A stretch of 58,759 nucleotides of DNA from Gemmatimonadota bacterium (GTDB taxonomy: Bacteria > Gemmatimonadota > Gemmatimonadetes > Longimicrobiales > Gaopeijiaceae), in contig QJYK01000304.1 in assembly GCA_003248075.1 (NCBI GenBank), positions 1 through 58,759 of the forward strand, given 5' to 3'. The translations under genes were made by a program, and so were the position numbers. Below the pieces are notes generated by a model. It was not told the origin of the DNA. It made no database searches and saw only the letters and a list, made by a program, of their open reading frames with translations. Shown piece after piece: positions 1 through 41,630 of the stretch (its first letter is position 1; each line of letters opens with the position of its first letter).

Positions 1-498
1 GTCAAGCCTGTGATCGGGTCGTGGGGCCGGTTGATCGGTCGTGTCAACGACGCCGACGCCCTCGAGAGCATCCTCGACCACAAGGAGGCCCTGGGCGGGG
101 CACCGCACGCCGTCATCTATCTCCAGCGCTTCGTGGACAAGAGGGGGCGTGACATCCGTTCGTTCGTGGTGGACGGCCGATGCGTCGCGGCGATCGAGCG
201 CACCTCGGCGCATTGGAAGACGAACACGGCGCTGGGGGCGACCGCCTCGGCCCGAATCGTCGACCCCGAGCTGGCGGCACTGTCCGAGGCGGCCGCGGCC
301 GCGGTGGGCGGAGGCGTCGTGGCCATCGATGTCTTCGAGACCGACCGGGGACTGCTGGTCAACGAGGTGAACGGGACCATGGAGTTCCGCAATTCCGTCC
401 ACACGACCGGCGTGGACATCCCGGGCCTCGTCGCGGACCACGTGGTGCGGAGGGCGACGGAGTCCCCGGGAGAAGGCGCAAGGGGCCGCGTGGCGTGA
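1..498 (+). CDS. lysX: LysX-like ATP-grasp ligase (C-terminal part)
   Basis: C-terminal 165 residues of an ATP-grasp ligase of the LysX/RimK group; the 5' end lies outside the window and the reading frame is open from base 1. LysX ligates alpha-aminoadipate (ArgX: glutamate) to the C-terminal Glu of the carrier protein LysW. The visible '[11 protein letters not shown]' and the C-terminal '[22 protein letters not shown]' region, with acidic and Asn metal-binding residues, resemble Thermus LysX. The stop codon overlaps the GTG start of lysY (GTGA), as expected in a translationally coupled operon. Whether the enzyme acts on aminoadipate, glutamate or both cannot be told from this part. The lysW carrier gene is not in the window and is presumably upstream. 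Confidence 0.88.
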
Positions 499-1532
499 TC
501 CGGGTCTCCATCCTGGGAGGCTCGGGATACGGTGGTGGCGAGCTGCTCCGCATCCTCCTGGGGCACCCTGCCGTCGAGGTCTCACAGGTGACGTCGCGAA
601 GCCTGGCCGGCAAGCCTGTGTCGCGCGCGCATCCCAACCTGCGCGGGGCGACGCCGCTTCGCTTCACGGACCCGGACGATCTCGGGCAGTGCGACCTGCT
701 GTTCGCCGCGCTGCCCCACGGCGAGGCCGCCCGCCGATGGGACGACCTGGCGCCCCTCGCGGAGCGGTTCATCGACCTCAGCGCGGACTTCAGGCTCGAT
801 GACCCCGCAATCCATGCGCGCCACTACGGAGAGCACCCACGCCCGGATCTGCTCGGACGATTCGCTTACGGCCTCGCCGAGGTCAATCGCGATGCCATTC
901 GGGACGCCACCCACGTGGCTGCCGGAGGCTGCAACGCCACCGTCTCGATTCTCGCCCTCGCGCCGCTGTATGAGGCGGGCGTGGTCCACCGTGACCGCAC
1001 GGTGGTGGACGTGAAGGTCGGATCCAGCGAAGGCGGGGCACAGCCCAACGAGGGCTCGCACCACCCGATCCGGTCCGGCGTCGTACGCCCCTACAAGGCC
1101 GTCGGTCACCGGCACACGGCCGAGGTCGAAGCCGTGCTCTCCAGGACCGGCGACGCCCGGGTCCATCTGAGCGTCACCGCGGTCGACGTGGTGCGTGGGG
1201 CCGCCGCCCTGGCCCATGTCTTCCTCACCGAGCCGCTGGCGGAGAAAGACGTCTGGGGCATTCTCCGTAGCCGCTACGGTGCCGAGCCGTTCGTGCGCTT
1301 GGTGGCCGAGCGCTCGGGAGCGTTCAAGCTCCCGGACCCGAAGCTTCTCGCGGGGACGAACTACTGCGATGTCGGATTCGAGCTCGACCCGCTCTCCGAT
1401 CGTCTGGTGGTGATCGCCGCCATCGACAACCTGGTGAAGGGCTCGGCGGGACAGGCCGTTCAGGCGATGAACATCATGATGGGCTGGGACGAGCGCGCGG
1501 GGCTGGCGTTTCCCGGCCTGCACCCGGTGTGA
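495..1532 (+). CDS. lysY: LysW-aminoadipyl/glutamyl phosphate reductase (ArgC/LysY family)
   Basis: 345-aa NADPH-dependent semialdehyde dehydrogenase of the ArgC/LysY family. It reduces the LysW-bound acyl phosphate to the semialdehyde, the third LysW-carrier step. N-terminal Rossmann motif '[14 protein letters not shown]'; catalytic Cys in 'AAGGCNATV'; conserved '[16 protein letters not shown]' and His in 'GHRHTAEVE'. Length is normal for the family. The GTG start at 495 overlaps the lysX stop and places the Rossmann motif at residue 8; the longer upstream extension is only antisense-like low-complexity Arg/Gly sequence. It is followed after 2 bases by the amidotransferase gene. Family assignment is firm; lysine versus arginine use is inferred from the lysX and lysZJ neighbours. 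Confidence 0.9.
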
Positions 1533-1534
1533 CC

Positions 1535-2221
1535 ATGTGTCGAATTCTGGCCGTCCAGGCCGACGAGCCCGTCGACCCGGTGCCGTGGATCGAGGCGTTC
1601 GCCGAGCGTTGTCGCGCGAGCCGCGAGTACCAGGGCGACGGCTGGGGCGTGGCCTGGCGGGAGCGCGATGCCTGGCTGCGGCACCGATCCGTACGACCGA
1701 TCTGGGACGACCTCCCCGACGTGTTGCCGGGGTCGCGCCTCTTCGTCGTGCACGCGCGCAGCGCGTTTCGAAACGAGGGCGTCGCCGTCGAGAACAACAT
1801 GCCCTTCCTGGAGCAGGACCTGGCCTTCGCGTTCAACGGCGAGCTTCGCGGCGTGCGCCTTGCCGCACCCGGCGACACGGGCGCAGCGCGACTGCTCCAC
1901 CTCTTCACGCGCTTCCGAGCGTCGGCGGCAGGCGACGGACTGGCCGCGCTGGCTCGCCTGGATGGGGTGATCGCCTCGCGCACCGACTACGTCCGCGCGC
2001 TGAACCTGGTGATCAGCGACGGCCGGTCGATCTGGGTCAACGCCCACCACTCCGAAGATCCGGACTACTTCACGATGCACCACGCGTGGGTCGATCTCGG
2101 CCACGGTGCCGTCGCGCGCGCGGTCACGTCCGAAAGGCTTTCGCTCCCCGGTGTGGAGCCCCGTTGGGAGGCGATTCCCAACCACACGACACAGATCCTC
2201 GGGGAGGTCGCGACGTGCTGA
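1535..2221 (+). CDS. Class II glutamine amidotransferase (YafJ/EgtC-like)
   Basis: 228-aa N-terminal-nucleophile glutaminase domain. I chose the ATG at 1535 over the in-frame GTG at 1529 because it yields Met-Cys-Arg: Cys2 is the class II catalytic nucleophile exposed after Met removal. Other family signatures are 'GDGWGVAW', 'RSAFRNEGVAVENNMPF' (the His-Ala-Arg/Asn region) and 'FAFNGEL' (oxyanion Asn-Gly). It contains no synthase domain, so it is a stand-alone glutaminase or hydrolase of the YafJ/EgtC type. It sits inside the lysine operon, 2 bases after lysY and overlapping the lysZJ start by 7 bases, so it is very likely co-translated. Its role there is unknown. Possibilities are ammonia supply, or deamidation or hydrolysis of a gamma-glutamyl-type intermediate, since carrier-bound intermediates are gamma-linked to a Glu. 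That last idea is speculation. Confidence 0.8.
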   Translation: MCRILAVQADEPVDPVPWIEAFAERCRASREYQGDGWGVAWRERDAWLRHRSVRPIWDDLPDVLPGSRLFVVHARSAFRNEGVAVENNMPFLEQDLAFAFNGELRGVRLAAPGDTGAARLLHLFTRFRASAAGDGLAALARLDGVIASRTDYVRALNLVISDGRSIWVNAHHSEDPDYFTMHHAWVDLGHGAVARAVTSERLSLPGVEPRWEAIPNHTTQILGEVATC

Positions 2222-4353
2222 TCGTCAAAGTGGGCGGCGGTGACATCGACCTGGACGCGATCGCGGTGGACCTGGCGTCGCTGGCGAGACCGTTCGTCTT
2301 GCTTCATGGCGCGAACAAGCTGCGCGACAACGTGGCTGTCGCGCTCGGACACCCGCCCACCGTGGTCGAGTCCGTGTCCGGCTACACCAGCGTGCTGACG
2401 GACGAGCACGCGATCGACGCGCTGATGGCGGCATACGCCGGCATCCGGAACAAGAGGCTGGTGGAAGCCCTGCGCAGGGCCGGGGTGAACGCGCTCGGCC
2501 TCACCGGGCTCGACGGAGGACTCGTCCAGGGTGTACGCGGGCCTGGAATCCGCACGATTCGAGACGGGCGCAAGCTCCTGCTCCGCGACCTGTCGGGAAA
2601 GCCCCGCCGGGTCGACGGGCGTCTGCTGCGCACCCTCCTGGGGGAGGGGTATGCCCCGGTCATCACGGTGCCGATCGTCGGCGAGGATGGCGGAGCCCTC
2701 AACACGGAGAACGACGATGTCCTCGCGCTCCTGGCCTCCGACCTGGGCGCCAGCGACGTGGTCTCTCTCATCGAGGCGCCTGGGCTGCTGTCCGACCGAC
2801 GAGACCCTTCGACCGTCGTGCGCGATCTGGAGAGCGCGGATCTCGAGGCGTGGGAGGGCCGGGTCGAGGGTCGGATGAGGCGGAAGATCCGTGCCCTGCG
2901 AACGCTCTTCGAGCTCGCCGCGCCTCCGGGGCCCGTGGTGCGCATCGCCGACGGCCGGACGCGGCAGCCCGTGAGCGAGGCCCTCGCCGGCGCGGGCACG
3001 AGGGTGACCCTTTCACCGGGGCGGCAGCTCGCCGTCCCCACCTCCGCCGACCAGGATCCGGGACACGCCCTCCATGCCACGTCCAGCGCCGGTTGGCTGG
3101 AGCGCCAGCGGGTCCATGAGCTGGATCCCTACGGAAAGAGGGGCCTCACCCTGGTCGACGGGACCGGCGCGACCGTGCGCGACATCGAGGGACGCGTGTA
3201 CGTCGATTGCATCGGCGGGCACGGGGCTCTCGCCCTCGGACACCGCCATCCGGCCCTGGCGGTGGCCCTGGCCGACCAGGCGGAGCGGGTCTGGTCCGTA
3301 CCCGGCTCCTACGGGTCCCCGGCGCGCGCCAGGCTGCTGGAGCGACTTCACGAGGCACTTCCCGCGGAGCTCGATCGGACCTTCCTGTCGAACTCGGGGA
3401 CCGAGGCCGTGGAGGCCGCGCTGAAGATCGCGCGCAGCCACACCGGACGCTCCGGCTTCGTCGCGGCCCTGCGCGGATTCCACGGCCGCACCATGGGGGC
3501 GCTGTCGGTCACGAGCGAGGCCCGTTATCGGGAACCCTTCGAGCCGCTCCTGGGCGGGGTGCGCCGGATTCCGTTCAACGACCGTGATGCGCTTCGGGAC
3601 GCCGTCGACGAAGAGGTGGCGGCGGTGGTCCTCGAGCCGGTGCAGGGCGAAGCGGGCGTGCACCCCGCCGACCCGGGGTTCCTGCAGGCGGCCCGCGAAG
3701 CGTGCGACGCGGCGGGTGCGCTCCTCGTTCTCGACGAAGTGCAAACGGGCTTCGGCCGTACCGGTCGAATGTTCGCCTTCGAGCGCGCCGGCGTAGTACC
3801 GGACGTGCTATGCCTGGCGAAGAGCATCGCCGGCGGGCTCCCACTGGGCGCGACGGCGGTGCGGCGCGGGATCGAGCTGCCCCTGGGCGCCCACGGGTCC
3901 ACGTTCGGCGGGAATCCCCTCGCCTGCGCGGTGGGCCGTGCCACCCTCGACGTTCTCCTCGACACCGAGTTGCTTTCGGAAGTCGAGGAGAAGGGACACC
4001 GGCTCGAGGCCCTGCTCGTGCGTGCGTCGCTGCCGGTCGTGCGCGAAGTGCGCCGCGTCGGACTCATGGTGGGGATTCAGCTACGCCTGCCGGTGCGGCC
4101 GTACCTCGCGCGTCTGCAGGAGGAGGGCGTCCTCGCGCTCGCGGCAGGATCGACGGTGCTCCGCTTGCTGCCGCCTCTCATCATCACCGGTGAGCAGATC
4201 GAGCTCGTGGCTCGCGCGCTCGTGCGCGTGCTCGGCGAGGCCCCCGAGGCGTCGTCGGATGCGGCCCGCGATCGGTCTCTGGAGTCGCGCGGGGACCCGT
4301 ATGCGCCGGGCCAGGGCTCCGAGCCGGGACCCGCCCTGCTCAGCCGGCCCTAG
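2215..4353 (+). CDS. LysZ-LysJ fusion: LysW-aminoadipate kinase + LysW-semialdehyde aminotransferase
   Basis: A single open frame of 712 aa with two complete enzymes. Residues about 1-265 are an amino-acid kinase of the ArgB/LysZ family: 'LIVKVGGGDIDLDA', 'LLHGANKLRDNVA', 'GLTGLDGGLV', 'NTENDDVLALLASDL' and 'GRMRRKI' closely follow Thermus LysZ. From about residue 285 to 680 it is a class III PLP aminotransferase of the ArgD/LysJ family: 'NSGTEAVEAALKIAR', 'GFHGRTMGALSVT', 'LVLDEVQTGFGRTG', PLP Lys in 'CLAKSIAGGLPLGA' and 'GSTFGGNPLACAV'. The roughly 20-residue linker has no Met or stop, so the halves are not separate genes. The GTG start at 2215 overlaps the amidotransferase stop. The last 30 residues are a low-complexity tail. 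The kinase and the aminotransferase catalyse steps 2 and 4 of the LysW pathway, with LysY between them. Confidence 0.88.
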   Translation: MLIVKVGGGDIDLDAIAVDLASLARPFVLLHGANKLRDNVAVALGHPPTVVESVSGYTSVLTDEHAIDALMAAYAGIRNKRLVEALRRAGVNALGLTGLDGGLVQGVRGPGIRTIRDGRKLLLRDLSGKPRRVDGRLLRTLLGEGYAPVITVPIVGEDGGALNTENDDVLALLASDLGASDVVSLIEAPGLLSDRRDPSTVVRDLESADLEAWEGRVEGRMRRKIRALRTLFELAAPPGPVVRIADGRTRQPVSEALAGAGTRVTLSPGRQLAVPTSADQDPGHALHATSSAGWLERQRVHELDPYGKRGLTLVDGTGATVRDIEGRVYVDCIGGHGALALGHRHPALAVALADQAERVWSVPGSYGSPARARLLERLHEALPAELDRTFLSNSGTEAVEAALKIARSHTGRSGFVAALRGFHGRTMGALSVTSEARYREPFEPLLGGVRRIPFNDRDALRDAVDEEVAAVVLEPVQGEAGVHPADPGFLQAAREACDAAGALLVLDEVQTGFGRTGRMFAFERAGVVPDVLCLAKSIAGGLPLGATAVRRGIELPLGAHGSTFGGNPLACAVGRATLDVLLDTELLSEVEEKGHRLEALLVRASLPVVREVRRVGLMVGIQLRLPVRPYLARLQEEGVLALAAGSTVLRLLPPLIITGEQIELVARALVRVLGEAPEASSDAARDRSLESRGDPYAPGQGSEPGPALLSRP

Positions 4354-33096: not shown

Positions 33097-36000
33097 CCTC
33101 CGCGAACGACGTCGGTCGCCCGGCCATCGAAGAGCGGGCCGCCGACCTGGCGCGCGCCCTGGGAGCCGTTCGTGCCGTCGGGCAGCCGCGAAGGTTCCGG
33201 CGCCGCCTCGCGGACCTGGCCGAGCGGACCGAGTCCGTGCTGCGACGCGTCGAGTCCTGTGCCGCCTGCACGTCGCTCGCCGCCGAGTGGCTCCTGGACA
33301 ACCGGCACATCGTGCTGGGCGCCGTCCTCCAGGTAGAGGAGGACCTCACCACCGACTTCTACGAGGTCCTGCCCAAGACCGATGCCCTCGGAGAGCCCCG
33401 CATCCAGAGGGTCGCCGACGAGATCGTGGCGGCGGGAAACGGATACGTCGACCTGGGCGCGATCCGCGCCTTCCTCGGCTCGTTCCAGCGCTGGGCGCCG
33501 CTGCACATGTCCGAGCTGTGGGCGCTCCCCTCGTACCTTCGCTTGACCTTGCTGGGCCGCACCTTCGACGCAGCCTGCGAGCTCGCCTCGGAGATCGACG
33601 GGACCGGGGTGGCCGCGGACCGCATATCGACGGGCATCGCGTGCCTCCGAGCGATCGACGAGCAGGACTGGAGGAACGCTTTTGAAGAGCTGAGTCTGGT
33701 CGACGCGACCCTGCGACAGGACCCTGCGGCCATCTACCCGCGTCAGGATTTCCCGACGCGCGACCGCTATCGAAAGGCGGTGGAGGAGCTCTCCAGATGG
33801 TCCACCAAGGATGAGTGGGTCGTGGCCGAGGAAGTCGTCGCCCGTTGCGGCGAGGCGACCGGAGACGAGCGCCACGTGGGCCATCACCTGTTGGGACCAG
33901 GCCGGCTTCCCCTCGAAGCGCTGCTCGGCTGTCACCGCCCGCTGTCGGCCCGACTGCGGCGCATGGGCTTCGGGGTCGCAGGCCCGCTCTACTTCGGAAG
34001 CATCATCGCGATCACCCTGGCGCTTGCCGCCACCGTCGTCGCTCCGTCGAAGGAAGCTGACGCGCCCTGGCTCGCGCTCCTGGCCCTCCTGGCCCTGGCC
34101 ACGGTACCGACGAGCACGGTCGCGGTCGCGATGGTCAACCTCCTGGTGGCGCGCCTGGTCCCCCCCCGACCACTCCCCAGGCTCGACCTGTCCCAGGGTG
34201 TGCCGGCGGAGTTCCGCACATGCGTCGTGGTACCCGCGCTCCTTGCGGACGAGGTCGAGGTGGACGCCCTGCTGGCTCAGCTGGAGATGGCGTACATCGG
34301 CAACCGGGACGACAACGTAGCCTTTGCGCTCCTCGCCGATCCCCCCGATGCCTCTCACGAGCGGGAGCCGGAGGACGCGCGTCTCCTTGCGGCCGCGAGG
34401 ACCGGCATCCGCCGGCTCAACGAGCGCCATCGCGACCCGTCGGGAGATCCTTTCGCCCTCTTCTACCGACGTCGAACGTGGAACGAGAAGGAAGGCCGCT
34501 GGATGGCGTGGGAGAGGAAACGGGGGAAGCTGCGCGAGTTCAACCAGTTCGTCCTCGGCTCGAAGCAGACGGGCCTCGAGCTCGTGGAGGGCGACGTGGA
34601 CGCGCTGCGCTCCTCGCGCTTCGCGCTGACGTTGGACGCGGACACGCTCCTGCCCCGCGACGCCGCACTCCGTCTGATCGGCACTCTGGCGCACCCGCTC
34701 AACCGGCCCCGCTTCGGGCCGGACGGTCGGGTCACCGGCGGCTACACCGTCCTGCAGCCGCGTGTGGAAACCCTTCTCGAGGAGCACCCCTCCTGGTTCG
34801 CGCGCATCCTGGCCGCCGACGAGGGTCTGGACCTGTACTCCCACGCGGTATCCGACGTCTATCAGGACCTGTTCGGTGAGGGCATCTACGCGGGCAAGGG
34901 CCTCTACGAGATCGGAGCGTTCGAGCGCGCTCTCGAGGGGCGCGCGCCGGAGAACGCCCTGCTCAGTCACGATCTCTTCGAGGGGGTCCATGGCAGGGCG
35001 GGCCTCGTGTCCGACGTCGCCGTCCTCGAGGACTTTCCCGTTCATCCGCTGGCATGGCTGAGCCGCGCGCACCGCTGGATCCGGGGCGACTGGCAGCTGT
35101 TGCCGTGGCTCCTTCCGACGGTGCCCACCGCCGATGGCGCCCGGCGACGCAACCGGCTGAGCTGGACCGCACGCTGGAAGATCGCGGACAACCTGCGGCG
35201 GAGCCTGTTGGCCCCTTCCCTGGTGGCGTTCGCCGTGCTCGGCTGGACCGTCCTGCCGAGGAGCGACGCATGGTGGACGGCATTCATGGCCGCGGTGCTC
35301 GCGTCGCCGGTCCTCCTGGCATCCCTGGACCGAGCGCACCGCCTCGTTCGCTCACGAGGCGACCGCCTACGCCCGCTGCGCGGTCGACGCCTCTTCCGGC
35401 CCGTGGCACGATGGGCTCTGGCCGTCCTCTTCCTCGCCTGGGAGGCCGTACTGGCGGTCGATGCCATCGTCCGGACGCTGTTCCGACTCACGGTCACGCG
35501 CCGTCATCTGCTGGAGTGGACGTCCGCCGCCGTGACGAGCCGCAGACTCGCCGCCGACCGGTCGCCGCTGGGACAGCTGGGCGCGTTGGCGCCGAGCCCG
35601 ACGTTGGCTCTGGTGGCGCTCGCGGCACTGGCGTCCACCGGAGCCGACACCGGCATGCCCGTGCTCCTCCCCCTGAGCGCCTGGCTGCTTGCGCCGTTCC
35701 TGGTGACGCCCCTCTCCCACGCGCCTTCCCGGCCGGAGGCGGGCCTGCCACCCGGACTGATGAAGCGCCGCCTGAGGCTGCACGCGCGCAGGACCTGGGC
35801 GTTCTTCGAGCACTTCATGGGTCCCGGGGACCATTGGCTCCCTCCCGACCACGTGCAGATCGATCCACCAGGTGGCACAGCCCACCGCACCTCGCCCACG
35901 AACATCGGGCTCGGGCTCCTCTCGGCTCAGCTCGCCCACGACCTGGGGCACGTCACCCTCGGGAGGCTCATCGCGCACGTCTCGAACGCCCTCGATGCCC

Positions 36001-39000
36001 TGGATCGGTTGGAGCGCCATCGAGGTCACTTCCTCAACTGGTACGACACGCAACGGTTGGCGACGCTCAGCCCCCGCTACGTCTCGACGGTGGACAGCGG
36101 CAACCTCGCCGCCGCGCTCCTCGTGCTGAGGGAGTCGCTGAAGGAGCTGGACGAGGAGCCGGATCCGCGCGAGGCGGACGTGGCGGGCCTGGCCGACGGG
36201 CTCGAGGTGCTCGCGGGTGCGATGGGCGACTCCGCCGGAGCCCCGTCGGGCTCGCTGCGCGCGACGGCGCAGGACCTCGTCACGGCCGCCGCGCGCGCGC
36301 GCGCCGAAGCGGCTCGGCCGGCCAACCTCCTGCCGGCGGTGCGCGAGGTCGAAGCCGCGTTGAGACGGGCCGAGTCCCGTGTGGCGGACGCACTCCCGGA
36401 GCTCCCCCTCGACGCGGCCGGCCTGGCGGACGTGCGTTGGTGGGTGCAGACGCTGGCCGCCCAGGCGCATCTGGAGCGAGAGGATATCGAGGAGCTTCAC
36501 CCGTGGCTCGCGGCTCGCGCCGCTCCCCCGACGGCGTATCGCTCCCCGGAGGCGGGGTGGGAGCTCGGTCGGGCGTGGAAGCGATTCCGAGCCTCGGTTC
36601 CCGACACGAGCTCGCTCCGAGAGGTCCCGGGAGTGTGCGCGCGTCTCTCCGACCAACTGGACGCCCTGGATGCGCTCGTAGAGAAGCAGGCCAGCCGTGA
36701 CGCGCTGAGGGCCACGTGGTGGCAGGAGGCGGCGTCCTGGAACGGCGCCCTGCGAGCGCGCCTCCGGGCGGCGGCGGCTCGCGCCACCACGACCCTGGAC
36801 GAGCTGACGGGTCTTCGCCGACGCATCGAGGGCATCCTGGGCGGCATGGACTTCGGGTTCCTCTACGACCGTCGGCGCCGCCTTCTGCACGTGGGCTACG
36901 ACGTCGACTCGGCCACCCTCGACCGGAGCCACTACGACCTCTACGCGTCCGAGTCGCGCCTGGCCAGCTACGTGGCGATCGCCAAGGGCGACGTCCCCGT
37001 GGAGCACTGGCTCATGCTGGCCCGCCCCTTCGGGCGCCGGAGGGGTGCAGCCGTGCTGCTCTCCTGGGGGGGATCGATGTTCGAGTACCTCCTGCCCAGC
37101 CTGTTCCTGCGGACTCCCGAGAATTCGCTCGCTGCCATGGCGTGTCGATCGGCAGTGGCCGCCCAGATCGCGTTCGGACGTGAGCACGCCATCCCATGGG
37201 GCGTCTCCGAGTCGGCGTACGCCGAGACCGACACGAGCCGCCGCTATCGGTACCGTGCGTTCGGGGTTCCGGAGCTCGCCCTCCACCGGGACTCCACGCC
37301 CCGACGTGTAGTCGCGCCCTACGCCTCGGCGCTCGCGCTCACGGTGAGGGCCAAGGACGCGGCGCGTAACCTGTGTGTCCAGGAACGCATGGGCTCCCTC
37401 GGCCCCGTAGGCTTCTATGACGCGCTCGACTTCGGAGCGGCTTCGCGCCCTCCCACTTCCCCCACGATCGTGGGGACGGTCATGGCGCACCATCAGGGGA
37501 TGCTGCTGGCCGCGGTCCACCACGTGCTGACGGACGGTGCCACGGTTCGGCGCTTCCACGCGGCCCCGCGGGTCGCGGCCCTCGAGTACCTGCTGCACGA
37601 GCGGCCACCTGCGCTGGTCCGTCCCTTGCGCCGCGCGACGAGGCCGTCGCCCCCGGTAGCCCGAGCCCCCGAGGTCCCGTCGATCGCACCCTGGACGGTG
37701 GCTCCGGACGCGTTCCCTCCGGAGGCGAACGTGCTCTCCAACGGGCGCCTGAGCACCATCCTCACCGGCGCCGGGGCAGGAGGCATGCGCTGGCACGGAT
37801 ACGACGTCACCCGTTGGCGCCCCGACCCCACCCGCTCGTGTTGGGGAAGCTGGGTTTACGTCCTGGACCGCGACGCCGACAGACTCGCGTCCGCCACGCT
37901 CGCCCCGACCTGGACTCCGGCGGAGCGCGAGGAGGTGGTCTTCTCCGAGGAGTCCGCCGAGTTCCACCGCGACCTCCACGATCTGCGGCTACGCATGCTG
38001 GTCACCATTGCGCCGGGCTTCGATGTCGAGATCCGACGCGTCGGCATCGTGAACGAGTCGAAGCGGGCCAAGAGGATCGACCTCACGTCGTTCTCGGAGG
38101 GAGCGTTGTCCCGGCCGTCCGAAGACCGGCGACACCCCGCGTTCGCGAAGCTCTTCGTCGAGGCCGATTTCGATCCTTCGACGAACACGTTGGGACTCGG
38201 CAGGAGGTCGGCCGGGCTGGACGAGCATCCCCTGTGCGTGGCACACCGGGTCCTGACTCAGGAAGGACACGGACACCTCGTCGGATGGTGCGCGGACCGG
38301 GAAGACTTCCTCGGACGACTCGGAGACCTGCGCAGGCCGCGGGGAGCTACGGACCCTTCGCTGGATCTGCGCCGCCGTGGACCCTGGGCGCCGCTGGATC
38401 CCATCCTCAGCCTCACCGCCCGCGTGTCCGTCCCGGCCGGCGGTTCGGTCACCGTGACGTTCCTGACCGCGGTGGGCGCGACACGCCAGGCAGCGATGGC
38501 CGCACTGGACGCTTACCGATCGGACGGAAGCGTGACCCTGGCCGTCGAGCAGGCAAAGGACCACGAGCGCAACCTCAGGCAACGACTGGGCATCTCGGCG
38601 GGGGAGCCCCGGGAGTACCAACGGCTCGTGTCGAGGCTCGCCTACCCCTACCACCGGGCTGGAGAGTCCGTCGGGTCGGCGTCGCCCTCCGCGTCCCGTC
38701 AGAGCGTCCTCTGGTCCCTGGGAGTGTCCGGCGATCGGCCGGTCGTCACAGCCCGGGACGCCCGTCCCGGCGAAGGGGACGCGCTGCGCCAGCTGCTGCG
38801 GGCACACCAGTATCTGCGCGCACACGGCGTCGAGTTCGACGTCGTCGTCGTGGGGCGGGAGCCCGATGGCTATGGCGAGCCGATGCGGACCTGGGTCGAG
38901 AGCGTGCTCTCTGACTACGGGCGCACGGATCTTCTGAACGCGCCCGGCGGAGTCCACTACGTGTCCTCGACGAGGTTGGGCGTCGAGGCGCGCAGCACGC

Positions 39001-41630
39001 TCGAGGAGGCCTCCTGCCTGGTCGTGGAAGGGAGCGCCCCCGATCTGACCGGGGCGCTCGAGCCGACTCCCCAGCGACCCGCCGAGCTTCCCGCGTTCAT
39101 CCCGGTGCCTTCGGGCCCGCCGACCGCGCGCACCCCGGTGTCCCTGGAGCGGATGACGGGGTTGAGGTTCTTCAACGGTTGGGGCGGATTCACGCCCTCG
39201 GGGAGGGAGTACGTCATCCAGCTGGACGAGTCCCCCACGCCGGCGCCATGGTCGAACGTCCTGGCGAATCCCCGCTTCGGTACCCTGGTGACCGAGTCGG
39301 GCGGAGGGTTCACCTGGGACGGCAATTCGGGCGAGTCGCGCCTGACTCCCTGGTCGAACGACCCCGTTCTCGACCCTCCGGGGGAGGTCGTGTACCTGCG
39401 GGACGAGGAAACCGGTGAGATCTGGACCCCCACGCCGGAGCCCGCCGGCGAAGAAGGGCACCAGGTGGTCCACCGCTGCGACCAGACCACCTTCGAATGC
39501 GGCGGCCACGGGCTCGCGCAGCGCTTGCGGATCTTCGTGCCCATCGAGGGACGCGTGAAGGTCAGCGAACTGGAGATCGAGAATCGCTGGGCGCGTCCCC
39601 GTCGCCTCACGGTCACATGCTACGTGGAATGGGTCCTCGGATCCCACCGCTGGATCACGGCGCCCCACGTGGTGACCGGTTTCCTGGAGGCGGAGGGAGC
39701 CATCATCGCCGAGAACCGTTTCTCTTGGTCGTCGGGAGCGCGTTATGCGTTCCTCGCCAGTGACAGTCCGGTCCACGGCTTCACCTGCGATCGCGCCGAG
39801 TTCCTCGGTCCGTCGGGAGACCTCCGCAGGCCGACGGGCCTGGTCCGTGTCGGCCTCGCCCGCACCTGTGGTGCGCGCCTGGATCCCTGTGGCGCCCTCC
39901 AGGTCCACGTCGACCTCAGCCCGCGCGAGACGCGCACGATCCGCTTCTTCCTCGGCGCCGCGGACGACCCCGTTCAAGTGCGCGAAGCGCTCGTGCCGCT
40001 GCGCGCGCCCGGGGGCGCCGAGCAGGCGCTGCGGGTCACGCGCGACGCCTGGGAGCGGCTCCTGGATACCACGACGGTGGAGACTCCCGAGCCCGCGCTC
40101 GACCTGCTGGTCAACGGCTGGGCGCTGCACCAGACGGTCGCCTCCCGGCTCTGGGGACGCACGGGATTCTACCAGTCGAGCGGCGCGTTCGGCTTCCGTG
40201 ACCAGCTTCAGGACGTGTTGGCGCTGGTCGGGTCCGCCCCCGATCTGTGCCGCGAGAGGGTGGTGGACGCCGCGCGCCACCAGTTCCGTGAGGGTGACGT
40301 CATGCACTGGTGGCACCCCCCCGCGGATCGCGGCGTGCGTACGCGCTGCTCCGACGATCGTCTTTGGCTCCCCTACGTGGCGGCCCGGTGTGCGCAGGCA
40401 CTGGGTCCGGAGGGTCTCCTGGATCCACTCGTGCCGTTCCTCGAGGCACCACCGCTGGCGCCGGACGAGCCCGAGCGGTACGACGCCTTCGACTCGACGG
40501 GCGCACCGGCTACCGTCTTCGACCACTGTCTGCGTGCCCTCGACGTTCCCGACATCCTGTCGCCGCGCGGCGTCCCGCTCATCCGCCAGGGCGACTGGAA
40601 CGACGGCCTGAACCGCGTGGGCGTGCTGGGACGTGGAGAGAGCTTCTGGCTGGCCTGGTTCTTCTACGCGACGCTGCACGACTTTTCGCGCGTCTGCGAC
40701 GATGTGGGCCAGGTATCCAAGGCGGCCGACTATCGCAGGCGCGCCGAAGCCGTCCGTCAGGCTGTCGAAGCCCACGGATGGGACGGTGCCTGGTACCGCA
40801 GGGGGACGTACGACGACGGCGCCCTTTTGGGGTCGGCCAGCTGTGACGAGGGGACCATCGACTCGCTGCCGCAGACCTGGGCCGTGCTTTCGGGCGGAGC
40901 GGACCCCGGGCGGGCGCGCAGGGCGCTCGACTCCGCGTGGGAGAGGCTCGTGGATCGTGAGCAGATGATCATCCGGCTTCTCGCGCCCCCGTTCCACCGC
41001 ACCCGGCGGGAGCCGGGATACATCAAGAGCTATCCCCCAGGCGTCCGCGAGAACGGCGGCCAGTACACGCATGCCGCGGTATGGATGGGGTGGGCGTACT
41101 CGATGCTGGGCGACGGAGACCGGGCCGCGGAGGTGCTGCGGCTGCTGAGCCCGATCCTGCGAACGGCCACGGAGGCCGGGGCGAAGCGCTACAGGGTCGA
41201 GCCGTACGTTCTGGCCGGAGACGTCTACGGCGGTCCGCTGCACGGCGGCCGGGGGGGATGGAGCTGGTATACCGGCTCGGCGTCGTGGCTCTACCGACTC
41301 GCGACCGAGGCGATCCTGGGGATCGAGCTCCGGCCCGGGGGCCTGCTGCTGCAGCCCTGCATCCCTCGATCGTGGAAACGCTATCGCATCGTCCACCGAC
41401 ACGGCGGCGCGACGTACACGATCGACGTCGAGAACCCGTCCTCGCTCGGAAGCGGACAGGTGTCGCTCACGCTGGACGGAGTCCCCCTTGCCGACGCCTT
41501 CATTCCCCTGGTGGACGACGGCCTGCAACATCGCGTACGCGCCCTCTTGAGCGTGCCCGGCGAAGGGGAGCCGGGTGCCACGCCCGTCGCGGGCCTGTCG
41601 GGGGAGCGCGGGGCCAGCCGACGTCGATGA
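33093..41630 (+). CDS. Cyclic beta-1,2-glucan synthase-like protein (NdvB/ChvB: GT84-GH94)
   Basis: 2845-aa giant membrane enzyme, the usual size of NdvB/ChvB. The N-terminal soluble region (about 1-280) precedes two transmembrane segments (about 300-355). A glycosyltransferase domain follows with 'DADTLLPRDAALRLIG' (DxD, about residue 515) and 'RAHRWIRGDWQLLPW' (about 660, equivalent to QxxRW). More transmembrane segments lie at about 700-900. Next is the glucoamylase-like domain (about 930-1480, with 'HFMGPGDHWLPPDHVQ' and 'TSPTNIGL'), and then two GH94 carbohydrate-binding and phosphorylase modules to the end ('GRTGFYQSSGAFGFRDQLQDVLAL', 'IRQGDWNDGLNRVG', 'NGGQYTHAAVW'). The product would be a cyclic or linear beta-1,2-glucan in the periplasm. 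The start overlaps the USP stop and the stop overlaps the ATPase start, placing the gene in a stress unit. Confidence 0.9.
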   Translation: MTSANDVGRPAIEERAADLARALGAVRAVGQPRRFRRRLADLAERTESVLRRVESCAACTSLAAEWLLDNRHIVLGAVLQVEEDLTTDFYEVLPKTDALGEPRIQRVADEIVAAGNGYVDLGAIRAFLGSFQRWAPLHMSELWALPSYLRLTLLGRTFDAACELASEIDGTGVAADRISTGIACLRAIDEQDWRNAFEELSLVDATLRQDPAAIYPRQDFPTRDRYRKAVEELSRWSTKDEWVVAEEVVARCGEATGDERHVGHHLLGPGRLPLEALLGCHRPLSARLRRMGFGVAGPLYFGSIIAITLALAATVVAPSKEADAPWLALLALLALATVPTSTVAVAMVNLLVARLVPPRPLPRLDLSQGVPAEFRTCVVVPALLADEVEVDALLAQLEMAYIGNRDDNVAFALLADPPDASHEREPEDARLLAAARTGIRRLNERHRDPSGDPFALFYRRRTWNEKEGRWMAWERKRGKLREFNQFVLGSKQTGLELVEGDVDALRSSRFALTLDADTLLPRDAALRLIGTLAHPLNRPRFGPDGRVTGGYTVLQPRVETLLEEHPSWFARILAADEGLDLYSHAVSDVYQDLFGEGIYAGKGLYEIGAFERALEGRAPENALLSHDLFEGVHGRAGLVSDVAVLEDFPVHPLAWLSRAHRWIRGDWQLLPWLLPTVPTADGARRRNRLSWTARWKIADNLRRSLLAPSLVAFAVLGWTVLPRSDAWWTAFMAAVLASPVLLASLDRAHRLVRSRGDRLRPLRGRRLFRPVARWALAVLFLAWEAVLAVDAIVRTLFRLTVTRRHLLEWTSAAVTSRRLAADRSPLGQLGALAPSPTLALVALAALASTGADTGMPVLLPLSAWLLAPFLVTPLSHAPSRPEAGLPPGLMKRRLRLHARRTWAFFEHFMGPGDHWLPPDHVQIDPPGGTAHRTSPTNIGLGLLSAQLAHDLGHVTLGRLIAHVSNALDALDRLERHRGHFLNWYDTQRLATLSPRYVSTVDSGNLAAALLVLRESLKELDEEPDPREADVAGLADGLEVLAGAMGDSAGAPSGSLRATAQDLVTAAARARAEAARPANLLPAVREVEAALRRAESRVADALPELPLDAAGLADVRWWVQTLAAQAHLEREDIEELHPWLAARAAPPTAYRSPEAGWELGRAWKRFRASVPDTSSLREVPGVCARLSDQLDALDALVEKQASRDALRATWWQEAASWNGALRARLRAAAARATTTLDELTGLRRRIEGILGGMDFGFLYDRRRRLLHVGYDVDSATLDRSHYDLYASESRLASYVAIAKGDVPVEHWLMLARPFGRRRGAAVLLSWGGSMFEYLLPSLFLRTPENSLAAMACRSAVAAQIAFGREHAIPWGVSESAYAETDTSRRYRYRAFGVPELALHRDSTPRRVVAPYASALALTVRAKDAARNLCVQERMGSLGPVGFYDALDFGAASRPPTSPTIVGTVMAHHQGMLLAAVHHVLTDGATVRRFHAAPRVAALEYLLHERPPALVRPLRRATRPSPPVARAPEVPSIAPWTVAPDAFPPEANVLSNGRLSTILTGAGAGGMRWHGYDVTRWRPDPTRSCWGSWVYVLDRDADRLASATLAPTWTPAEREEVVFSEESAEFHRDLHDLRLRMLVTIAPGFDVEIRRVGIVNESKRAKRIDLTSFSEGALSRPSEDRRHPAFAKLFVEADFDPSTNTLGLGRRSAGLDEHPLCVAHRVLTQEGHGHLVGWCADREDFLGRLGDLRRPRGATDPSLDLRRRGPWAPLDPILSLTARVSVPAGGSVTVTFLTAVGATRQAAMAALDAYRSDGSVTLAVEQAKDHERNLRQRLGISAGEPREYQRLVSRLAYPYHRAGESVGSASPSASRQSVLWSLGVSGDRPVVTARDARPGEGDALRQLLRAHQYLRAHGVEFDVVVVGREPDGYGEPMRTWVESVLSDYGRTDLLNAPGGVHYVSSTRLGVEARSTLEEASCLVVEGSAPDLTGALEPTPQRPAELPAFIPVPSGPPTARTPVSLERMTGLRFFNGWGGFTPSGREYVIQLDESPTPAPWSNVLANPRFGTLVTESGGGFTWDGNSGESRLTPWSNDPVLDPPGEVVYLRDEETGEIWTPTPEPAGEEGHQVVHRCDQTTFECGGHGLAQRLRIFVPIEGRVKVSELEIENRWARPRRLTVTCYVEWVLGSHRWITAPHVVTGFLEAEGAIIAENRFSWSSGARYAFLASDSPVHGFTCDRAEFLGPSGDLRRPTGLVRVGLARTCGARLDPCGALQVHVDLSPRETRTIRFFLGAADDPVQVREALVPLRAPGGAEQALRVTRDAWERLLDTTTVETPEPALDLLVNGWALHQTVASRLWGRTGFYQSSGAFGFRDQLQDVLALVGSAPDLCRERVVDAARHQFREGDVMHWWHPPADRGVRTRCSDDRLWLPYVAARCAQALGPEGLLDPLVPFLEAPPLAPDEPERYDAFDSTGAPATVFDHCLRALDVPDILSPRGVPLIRQGDWNDGLNRVGVLGRGESFWLAWFFYATLHDFSRVCDDVGQVSKAADYRRRAEAVRQAVEAHGWDGAWYRRGTYDDGALLGSASCDEGTIDSLPQTWAVLSGGADPGRARRALDSAWERLVDREQMIIRLLAPPFHRTRREPGYIKSYPPGVRENGGQYTHAAVWMGWAYSMLGDGDRAAEVLRLLSPILRTATEAGAKRYRVEPYVLAGDVYGGPLHGGRGGWSWYTGSASWLYRLATEAILGIELRPGGLLLQPCIPRSWKRYRIVHRHGGATYTIDVENPSSLGSGQVSLTLDGVPLADAFIPLVDDGLQHRVRALLSVPGEGEPGATPVAGLSGERGASRRR

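Follow-up and report, generated by a model that had tools for sequence, protein, structure and literature searches.

Does one ORF in a Gemmatimonadota contig encode both the kinase LysZ and the aminotransferase LysJ of the LysW carrier-protein pathway, and if so, what does its operon make and how is the product set free? The pathway is a rare form of primary metabolism that works on a protein-bound substrate. The whole contig (QJYK01000304.1, positions 1 to 58,759, assembly GCA_003248075.1; Gemmatimonadota bacterium, Gaopeijiaceae) is called the window here. With a probability of about 0.6, we read the locus as a genuine bifunctional LysZ-LysJ protein in a lysW-lysX-lysY-amidohydrolase-lysZJ operon, which most likely makes ornithine and in which the amidohydrolase releases the product.

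The fusion protein and its operon

The ORF (2215 to 4353, plus strand) has a GTG start, a TAG stop and 712 codons in a single open frame. The features of the operon are as follows.

1 to 498, plus strand: lysX, C-terminal part (RimK-type ATP-grasp ligase loading LysW), cut by the contig start; NCBIfam TIGR02144 (LysX_arch), 194 bits on the fragment.
495 to 1532, plus strand: lysY (LysW-gamma-acyl-phosphate reductase, ArgC family), GTG start; TIGR01850 (argC), 351.5 bits, cut-off 233.6.
1535 to 2221, plus strand: EgtC-like class-II amidohydrolase (Ntn hydrolase, Cys2 nucleophile), 228 residues, putative release enzyme; PF13230, 34.7 bits, and fold.
2215 to 3000, plus strand: kinase domain (LysZ) of the fusion protein, residues 1-262; NF010659, 225.0 bits (cut-off 223).
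3001 to 3129, plus strand: interdomain linker, residues 263-305 (43 residues), unconserved, disorder predicted at 271-287.
3130 to 4239, plus strand: LysJ aminotransferase domain, residues 306-675, PLP lysine K536; PF00202, 349.4 bits; NF042418 is the best NCBIfam model.
4240 to 4353, plus strand: C-terminal tail (disorder predicted by AlphaFold at residues 689-712) and TAG stop.

In the fusion protein, Pfam AA_kinase covers residues 2-230 and Aminotran_3 covers residues 313-673. The kinase part (residues 1-265) passes the NCBIfam model for [LysW]-aminoadipate kinase, and its closest solved structures are those of Thermus LysZ (3u6u, 3wwm). It carries the motifs KVGGGD (residue 5), NTENDD (163) and GRMRRK (219). 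The second half has SNSGTEA (residue 392), LDEVQTGFG (506) and, with the PLP lysine, LAKSIAGG (534); both this lysine and the class-III fold (PF00202) expected of a LysJ are present. Its best model is NF042418 (LysJ) with 412.6 bits, under the strict cut-off of 700, and the argD model is not reached either (390.9 bits, cut-off 410.05); the name LysJ-like is thus given by best model and operon context. The linker contains no ATG, no stop codon and one GTG (residue 264). The original prediction is confirmed on this point: positions 2215 to 4353 encode one polypeptide in which a LysZ-type kinase and a class-III aminotransferase of the LysJ type are both complete.

The genes of the operon are tightly packed. 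The GTG start of lysY overlaps the stop codon of lysX, 2 bases separate the lysY stop from the ATG of the hydrolase gene, and the lysZJ start falls within the last codons of the hydrolase gene. Relatives with longer contigs show the conserved order lysW-X-Y-hydrolase-Z-J. lysW accompanies the fused gene in L105, L106, L158 and L159; in the window it would precede the contig start. The C-terminus of LysW is EDWGE in the two sequences read (L105, L106), and the window LysX carries the GSWGR motif for binding it.

Divergent from lysW lies a gene that encodes about 213 residues and weakly matches an ACT domain, at L106:12844-13488, L105:12621-13268, L158:5851-6492, L159:11742-12383 and L033:1368-2021 (minus strand). 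It is conserved near fused and some unfused clusters and is possibly an amino-acid-sensing regulator.

AlphaFold modelled the fusion protein with a mean pLDDT of 89.7 (both domains high) and a pTM of 0.60. Linker residues 271-287 fall below pLDDT 50, and the tail (689-712) is predicted to be disordered. The two domains are predicted to be tethered by a flexible linker and not rigidly docked. The original prediction had suggested that the fusion may help to channel the carrier-bound substrate between the two sites. Two confident domains, a disordered linker and the pTM value support tethering; they do not support a fixed channel, and no fixed domain arrangement is predicted.

In the proposed reaction order, LysX would load LysW with an amino acid, joined to its C-terminal Glu at the gamma-carboxyl, the LysZ domain would phosphorylate the LysW-bound amino acid, the separate LysY would reduce the phosphorylated intermediate, and the LysJ domain, in the same chain as LysZ, would transaminate the LysW-bound intermediate. 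The EgtC-like hydrolase would then cleave the gamma-glutamyl amide and free the product, ornithine being likelier than lysine. Since LysZ is step 2 and LysJ is step 4, with LysY acting between them, as the original prediction also had it, the fusion by itself cannot provide channelling. A benefit, if there is one, would lie in having LysZ and LysJ near each other around the carrier and in equal quantity. One flexible chain holding the steps that flank LysY would let the LysW cargo visit fewer proteins, and LysZ and LysJ would be made 1:1.

Occurrence and origins of the fusion

In a survey of 395 Gemmatimonadota genomes, LysZ of this kind was found in 43. A search for the two-domain architecture, as proposed with the original prediction, recovered four more fused Gemmatimonadales proteins, in G013 (674 aa), G014 (CALFPJ010000095.1, 708 aa), G202 (682 aa) and G289 (675 aa), and one LysZ-LysJ fusion of 667 aa in a Heimdallarchaeota MAG (L026, WAKA01000190.1). 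The remaining clusters read have lysZ and lysJ as two neighbouring genes, the lysJ start often overlapping the lysZ stop. Linker lengths are 37 to 66 residues in the other Gemmatimonadales fusions and 31 in Heimdallarchaeota, and the sequences differ. The C-terminal tail of the window protein is missing or shorter in the other fused proteins.

An assembly error or a stop codon lost in one assembly was ruled out by the presence of the fused frame, with differing linkers, in six genomes. In close relatives the two genes are separate and adjacent. Separate translation of LysJ from an internal start is unlikely in the window, with no ATG in the linker and one GTG at the end of the kinase. A linker ATG is present in the G014 and Heimdallarchaeota fusions, and an internal LysJ start is possible there.

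The five Gemmatimonadales fusions form one clade (support 100/100 in the LysJ tree and 96/95 in the LysZ tree). The Heimdallarchaeota fusion falls outside it; of the bootstrap trees, 0% for LysJ and 11% for LysZ recover a single origin. One common origin for all fusions is not favoured by these trees. It was concluded that the fusion arose at least twice, in Gemmatimonadales and in Heimdallarchaeota. Like the original prediction, which named no described LysZ-LysJ fusion, we found none in the literature searched, mostly open-access papers.

Is the fused state of any use to the cell? The fusion may be real and selectively neutral: a stop codon was lost between adjoining, coupled genes, and the domains work independently without channelling. 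We rate this at slightly under an even chance. It agrees with the unconserved sequence and length of the linker, with its predicted disorder and the pTM of 0.60, and with the layout of the separate-gene relatives, in which the lysJ start is usually at, or a few bases from, the lysZ stop; in G026 and G103 the separate lysJ is already in the lysZ frame after a stop. Against neutrality, the fused state is retained over four genera with no reversion seen, and it has a second origin in archaea. A fusion of two non-adjacent steps with two origins offers a natural test of whether tethering helps a carrier pathway.

Pathway product and provenance of the contig

Lysine as the product, as the names LysZ and LysJ would have it, is probably a wrong or incomplete reading. 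Diaminopimelate decarboxylase (lysA) is over cut-off in all 12 Gemmatimonadota tested, and the window's bin carries lysA and dapB. Homocitrate synthase (TIGR02146) gave nothing over cut-off in seven genomes, the window's bin included, and lysine synthesis by the aminoadipate route was rejected on this ground; the best homocitrate synthase candidate in G026 turned out to be LeuA. Of the genomes searched, the window's bin and the same-genus genome G001 alone have a classical acetylglutamate kinase (TIGR00761) and an ArgJ (TIGR00120) that pass the cut-offs; G013, G014, G026, G023 and G027 have neither. Six of the seven genomes have an ornithine carbamoyltransferase over cut-off, and the seventh, G013 (77% complete), has weaker or partial matches only. 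In related genomes with the cluster, the combination of lysA and, mostly, ornithine carbamoyltransferase with no ArgB, no ArgJ and no recognisable homocitrate synthase favours LysW-dependent ornithine synthesis. The full pattern, a LysW cluster replacing ArgB/ArgJ plus ornithine carbamoyltransferase, is seen in G014, G026, G023 and G027 and not in the window's bin. In the survey, LysZ and ArgJ rarely coincide: ArgJ occurs in 3 of the 43 LysZ genomes vs 159 of the 352 others (Fisher p 3e-7, relatedness ignored). A LysW-glutamate route to ornithine has been reported for Gemmatimonadota from annotation (PMC11651109). The cluster product is most likely ornithine rather than lysine.

In our estimate, lysine synthesis from aminoadipate on the Thermus model, with the LysZ-LysJ name correct for the window organism, is unlikely. 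The LysX signature NSVHT of the window is identical to that of T. thermophilus LysX, the kinase domain passes the [LysW]-aminoadipate kinase model, the bin possesses its own argB and argJ, and a Bacteroidota locus (L033) has a homocitrate-synthase-like gene beside lysW (311 bits, below the cut-off of 413.55). These points are opposed by the lack of a homocitrate synthase over cut-off in the bin or its relatives, by lysA and dapB in the bin, and by the relatives, in which the sole ArgB-like kinase is LysZ though ornithine carbamoyltransferase is present. Every Gemmatimonadota LysX read has the N-S signature of T. thermophilus LysX, which differs from G-F (S. tokodaii ArgX) and A-L (haloarchaeal ArgX); this counts against ornithine. 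Motif swaps in a haloarchaeal ArgX left its specificity unchanged (PMC10433800), which makes substrate prediction from the LysX motif uncertain. The LysX of four Thermoplasmata loci (L034, L037, L041, L042) carries an A-L signature like haloarchaeal ArgX, which suggests glutamate as the substrate there.

With argB and argJ in the same bin, the LysW route to ornithine would be redundant in the window organism unless the contig was mis-binned. Mis-binning, with the fusion coming from another Gemmatimonadales population of the sample, is given close to even odds, on the lower side. The bin (G000) has 4.65% contamination and holds both arginine routes. Over 20 kb, the best matches of the window in G001 are near 65-67% identity, lower than for several genes on other contigs of the bin, which reach about 72-78%. 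Window positions 34300 to 41300 have a second copy, about 65% identical, in the same bin (G000:C65:12896-19439). The tetranucleotide composition points the other way and places the window among the other contigs of the bin. The fusion finding is unaffected even if the contig is mis-binned.

Two further observations were made in this bin. L110:5078-6388 (G000:C163) encodes an acetylglutamate kinase that matches PRK04531 with 656 bits and exceeds a plain ArgB in length. The starts of contigs C110 and C50 (L113, L114) carry an identical response-regulator sequence, probably an assembly-graph overlap.

The EgtC-like hydrolase, product release and known systems

The hydrolase gene at 1535 to 2221, which the original prediction did not mention, is the more novel part of the operon. 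It scores 34.4 bits against the EgtC model TIGR03442 (cut-off 218.65), far too low for a true EgtC. Its AlphaFold model (17-sequence alignment) has a pLDDT of 91, and the best PDB fold matches are the EgtC structures 4zfl, 4zfj and 4zfk (4zfl, E 4e-12). Alignment and predicted structure agree on an Ntn hydrolase fold with an N-terminal Cys. M1 C2 R3, H73-A-R75, N101-G102 and G116 are invariant in all alignment rows. In an alignment with EgtC, G116 takes the position of the Asp that follows the NG motif. In class-II amidotransferases of the GlmS type, glutamine is bound by this Asp through its free amino group and by an Arg through its carboxylate. The hydrolase retains the Cys nucleophile and the Arg for the carboxylate and lacks the Asp. 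In the C-terminal Glu of LysW the carboxylate is free and the nitrogen is in a peptide bond, which suits a pocket that has the Arg and lacks the Asp. Judged by these residues and by gene context, the hydrolase probably takes over from LysK the cleavage of the gamma-glutamyl bond to LysW.

Eighteen clusters have the hydrolase gene between those for LysY and LysZ: the window, 15 more from Gemmatimonadota (L105, L106, L107, L108, L158-L162 and L165-L170), one Bacteroidota MAG (L033) and one Heimdallarchaeota MAG (L026). LysK was found at none of these 18 loci. Fifteen clusters without the hydrolase have LysK downstream of lysJ (Herpetosiphon, Acidobacteria, Woeseiaceae, Thermoplasmata, G070, G232), and five of the six LysK proteins scanned pass the [LysW]-lysine hydrolase model NF003367, the sixth being a partial ORF. 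Hydrolase and LysK thus exclude each other at these loci. LysK was over cut-off in none of the seven genomes searched whole, six of which have LysZ. One locus, L109 in G027, has lysZ and lysJ alone, with no release enzyme seen there. The hydrolase/LysK distribution follows one deep split of the LysZ tree and may therefore reflect a single evolutionary event.

Taken together, the data tip the balance somewhat towards the following view. In many LysW operons (nearly all of the Gemmatimonadota ones read, and those of the Bacteroidota and Heimdallarchaeota MAGs) the enzyme of the last step would be an EgtC-like cysteine Ntn hydrolase instead of the metallopeptidase LysK. The enzyme would accept a C-terminal, peptide-linked glutamate, the residue of its pocket for the amino group being gone, and two such lineages would later have fused LysZ to LysJ. 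It is rather unlikely that the hydrolase is an ordinary glutaminase or an editor of mis-loaded LysW, with an ArgE/DapE-like M20 protein elsewhere releasing the product. Such M20 proteins do occur in G000 and G014 (about 218-222 bits to DapE-ArgE or ArgE models), and LysK is likewise an M20 enzyme. However, comparable M20 matches are found in G001, a genome without the LysW cluster, the hydrolase sits in the operon, and the LysK clusters lack it. A glutaminase role is opposed by the invariant Gly at the position of the Asp that would hold glutamine by its free amino group. No LysW-linked amidotransferase was described in the mostly open-access literature searched.

If the hydrolase replaces LysK, the pathway would be complete in genomes now recorded as without its final enzyme, a family so far missing could be added to annotation pipelines, and the same step of amino-acid synthesis would be solved in two unrelated ways, by a zinc peptidase and by a cysteine Ntn hydrolase. 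The fusion is a real and conserved variation on a known pathway; its neighbour is the more novel lead and is directly testable.

Compared with Thermus thermophilus, both halves of the window protein are homologous over their full length to LysZ (3u6u, 3wwm) and LysJ, the catalytic motifs are kept, and LysX and LysY are encoded in the same operon. In Thermus, LysZ and LysJ are separate genes, whereas the window has one polypeptide with a 43-residue linker and diverged sequence; the Thermus LysW-aminoadipate route makes lysine, and the product in the window is probably ornithine. The haloarchaeal ArgW/ArgX system and the dual LysW system of Sulfolobus and Thermococcus likewise use an EDWGE carrier and the same order of chemistry, with glutamate the likely substrate (PMC10433800). 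Their LysX-type signature is A-L or G-F (N-S in the window), and the release enzyme differs. EgtC of the ergothioneine pathway (4zfj, 4zfk, 4zfl) shares with the hydrolase the fold, the N-terminal Cys nucleophile and gamma-glutamyl amide chemistry. The two are about 20% identical, the EgtC Asp is an invariant Gly in the hydrolase, and the hydrolase is placed in LysW operons. An ArgB-ArgD ORF in a Thermaerobacter-like MAG (L052:4253-5866) joins a kinase and a class-III aminotransferase in one frame and skips the reductase step, as in the window; it lies on a single low-coverage contig and runs past the contig end. This fusion is a counterpart from the acetylated pathway, with a true acetylglutamate kinase (TIGR00761, 220.8 bits). 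Yeast ARG5,6 is a fusion of acetylglutamate kinase and reductase; it also joins arginine-pathway enzymes, but these catalyze consecutive steps and, unlike those of the window, use no carrier.
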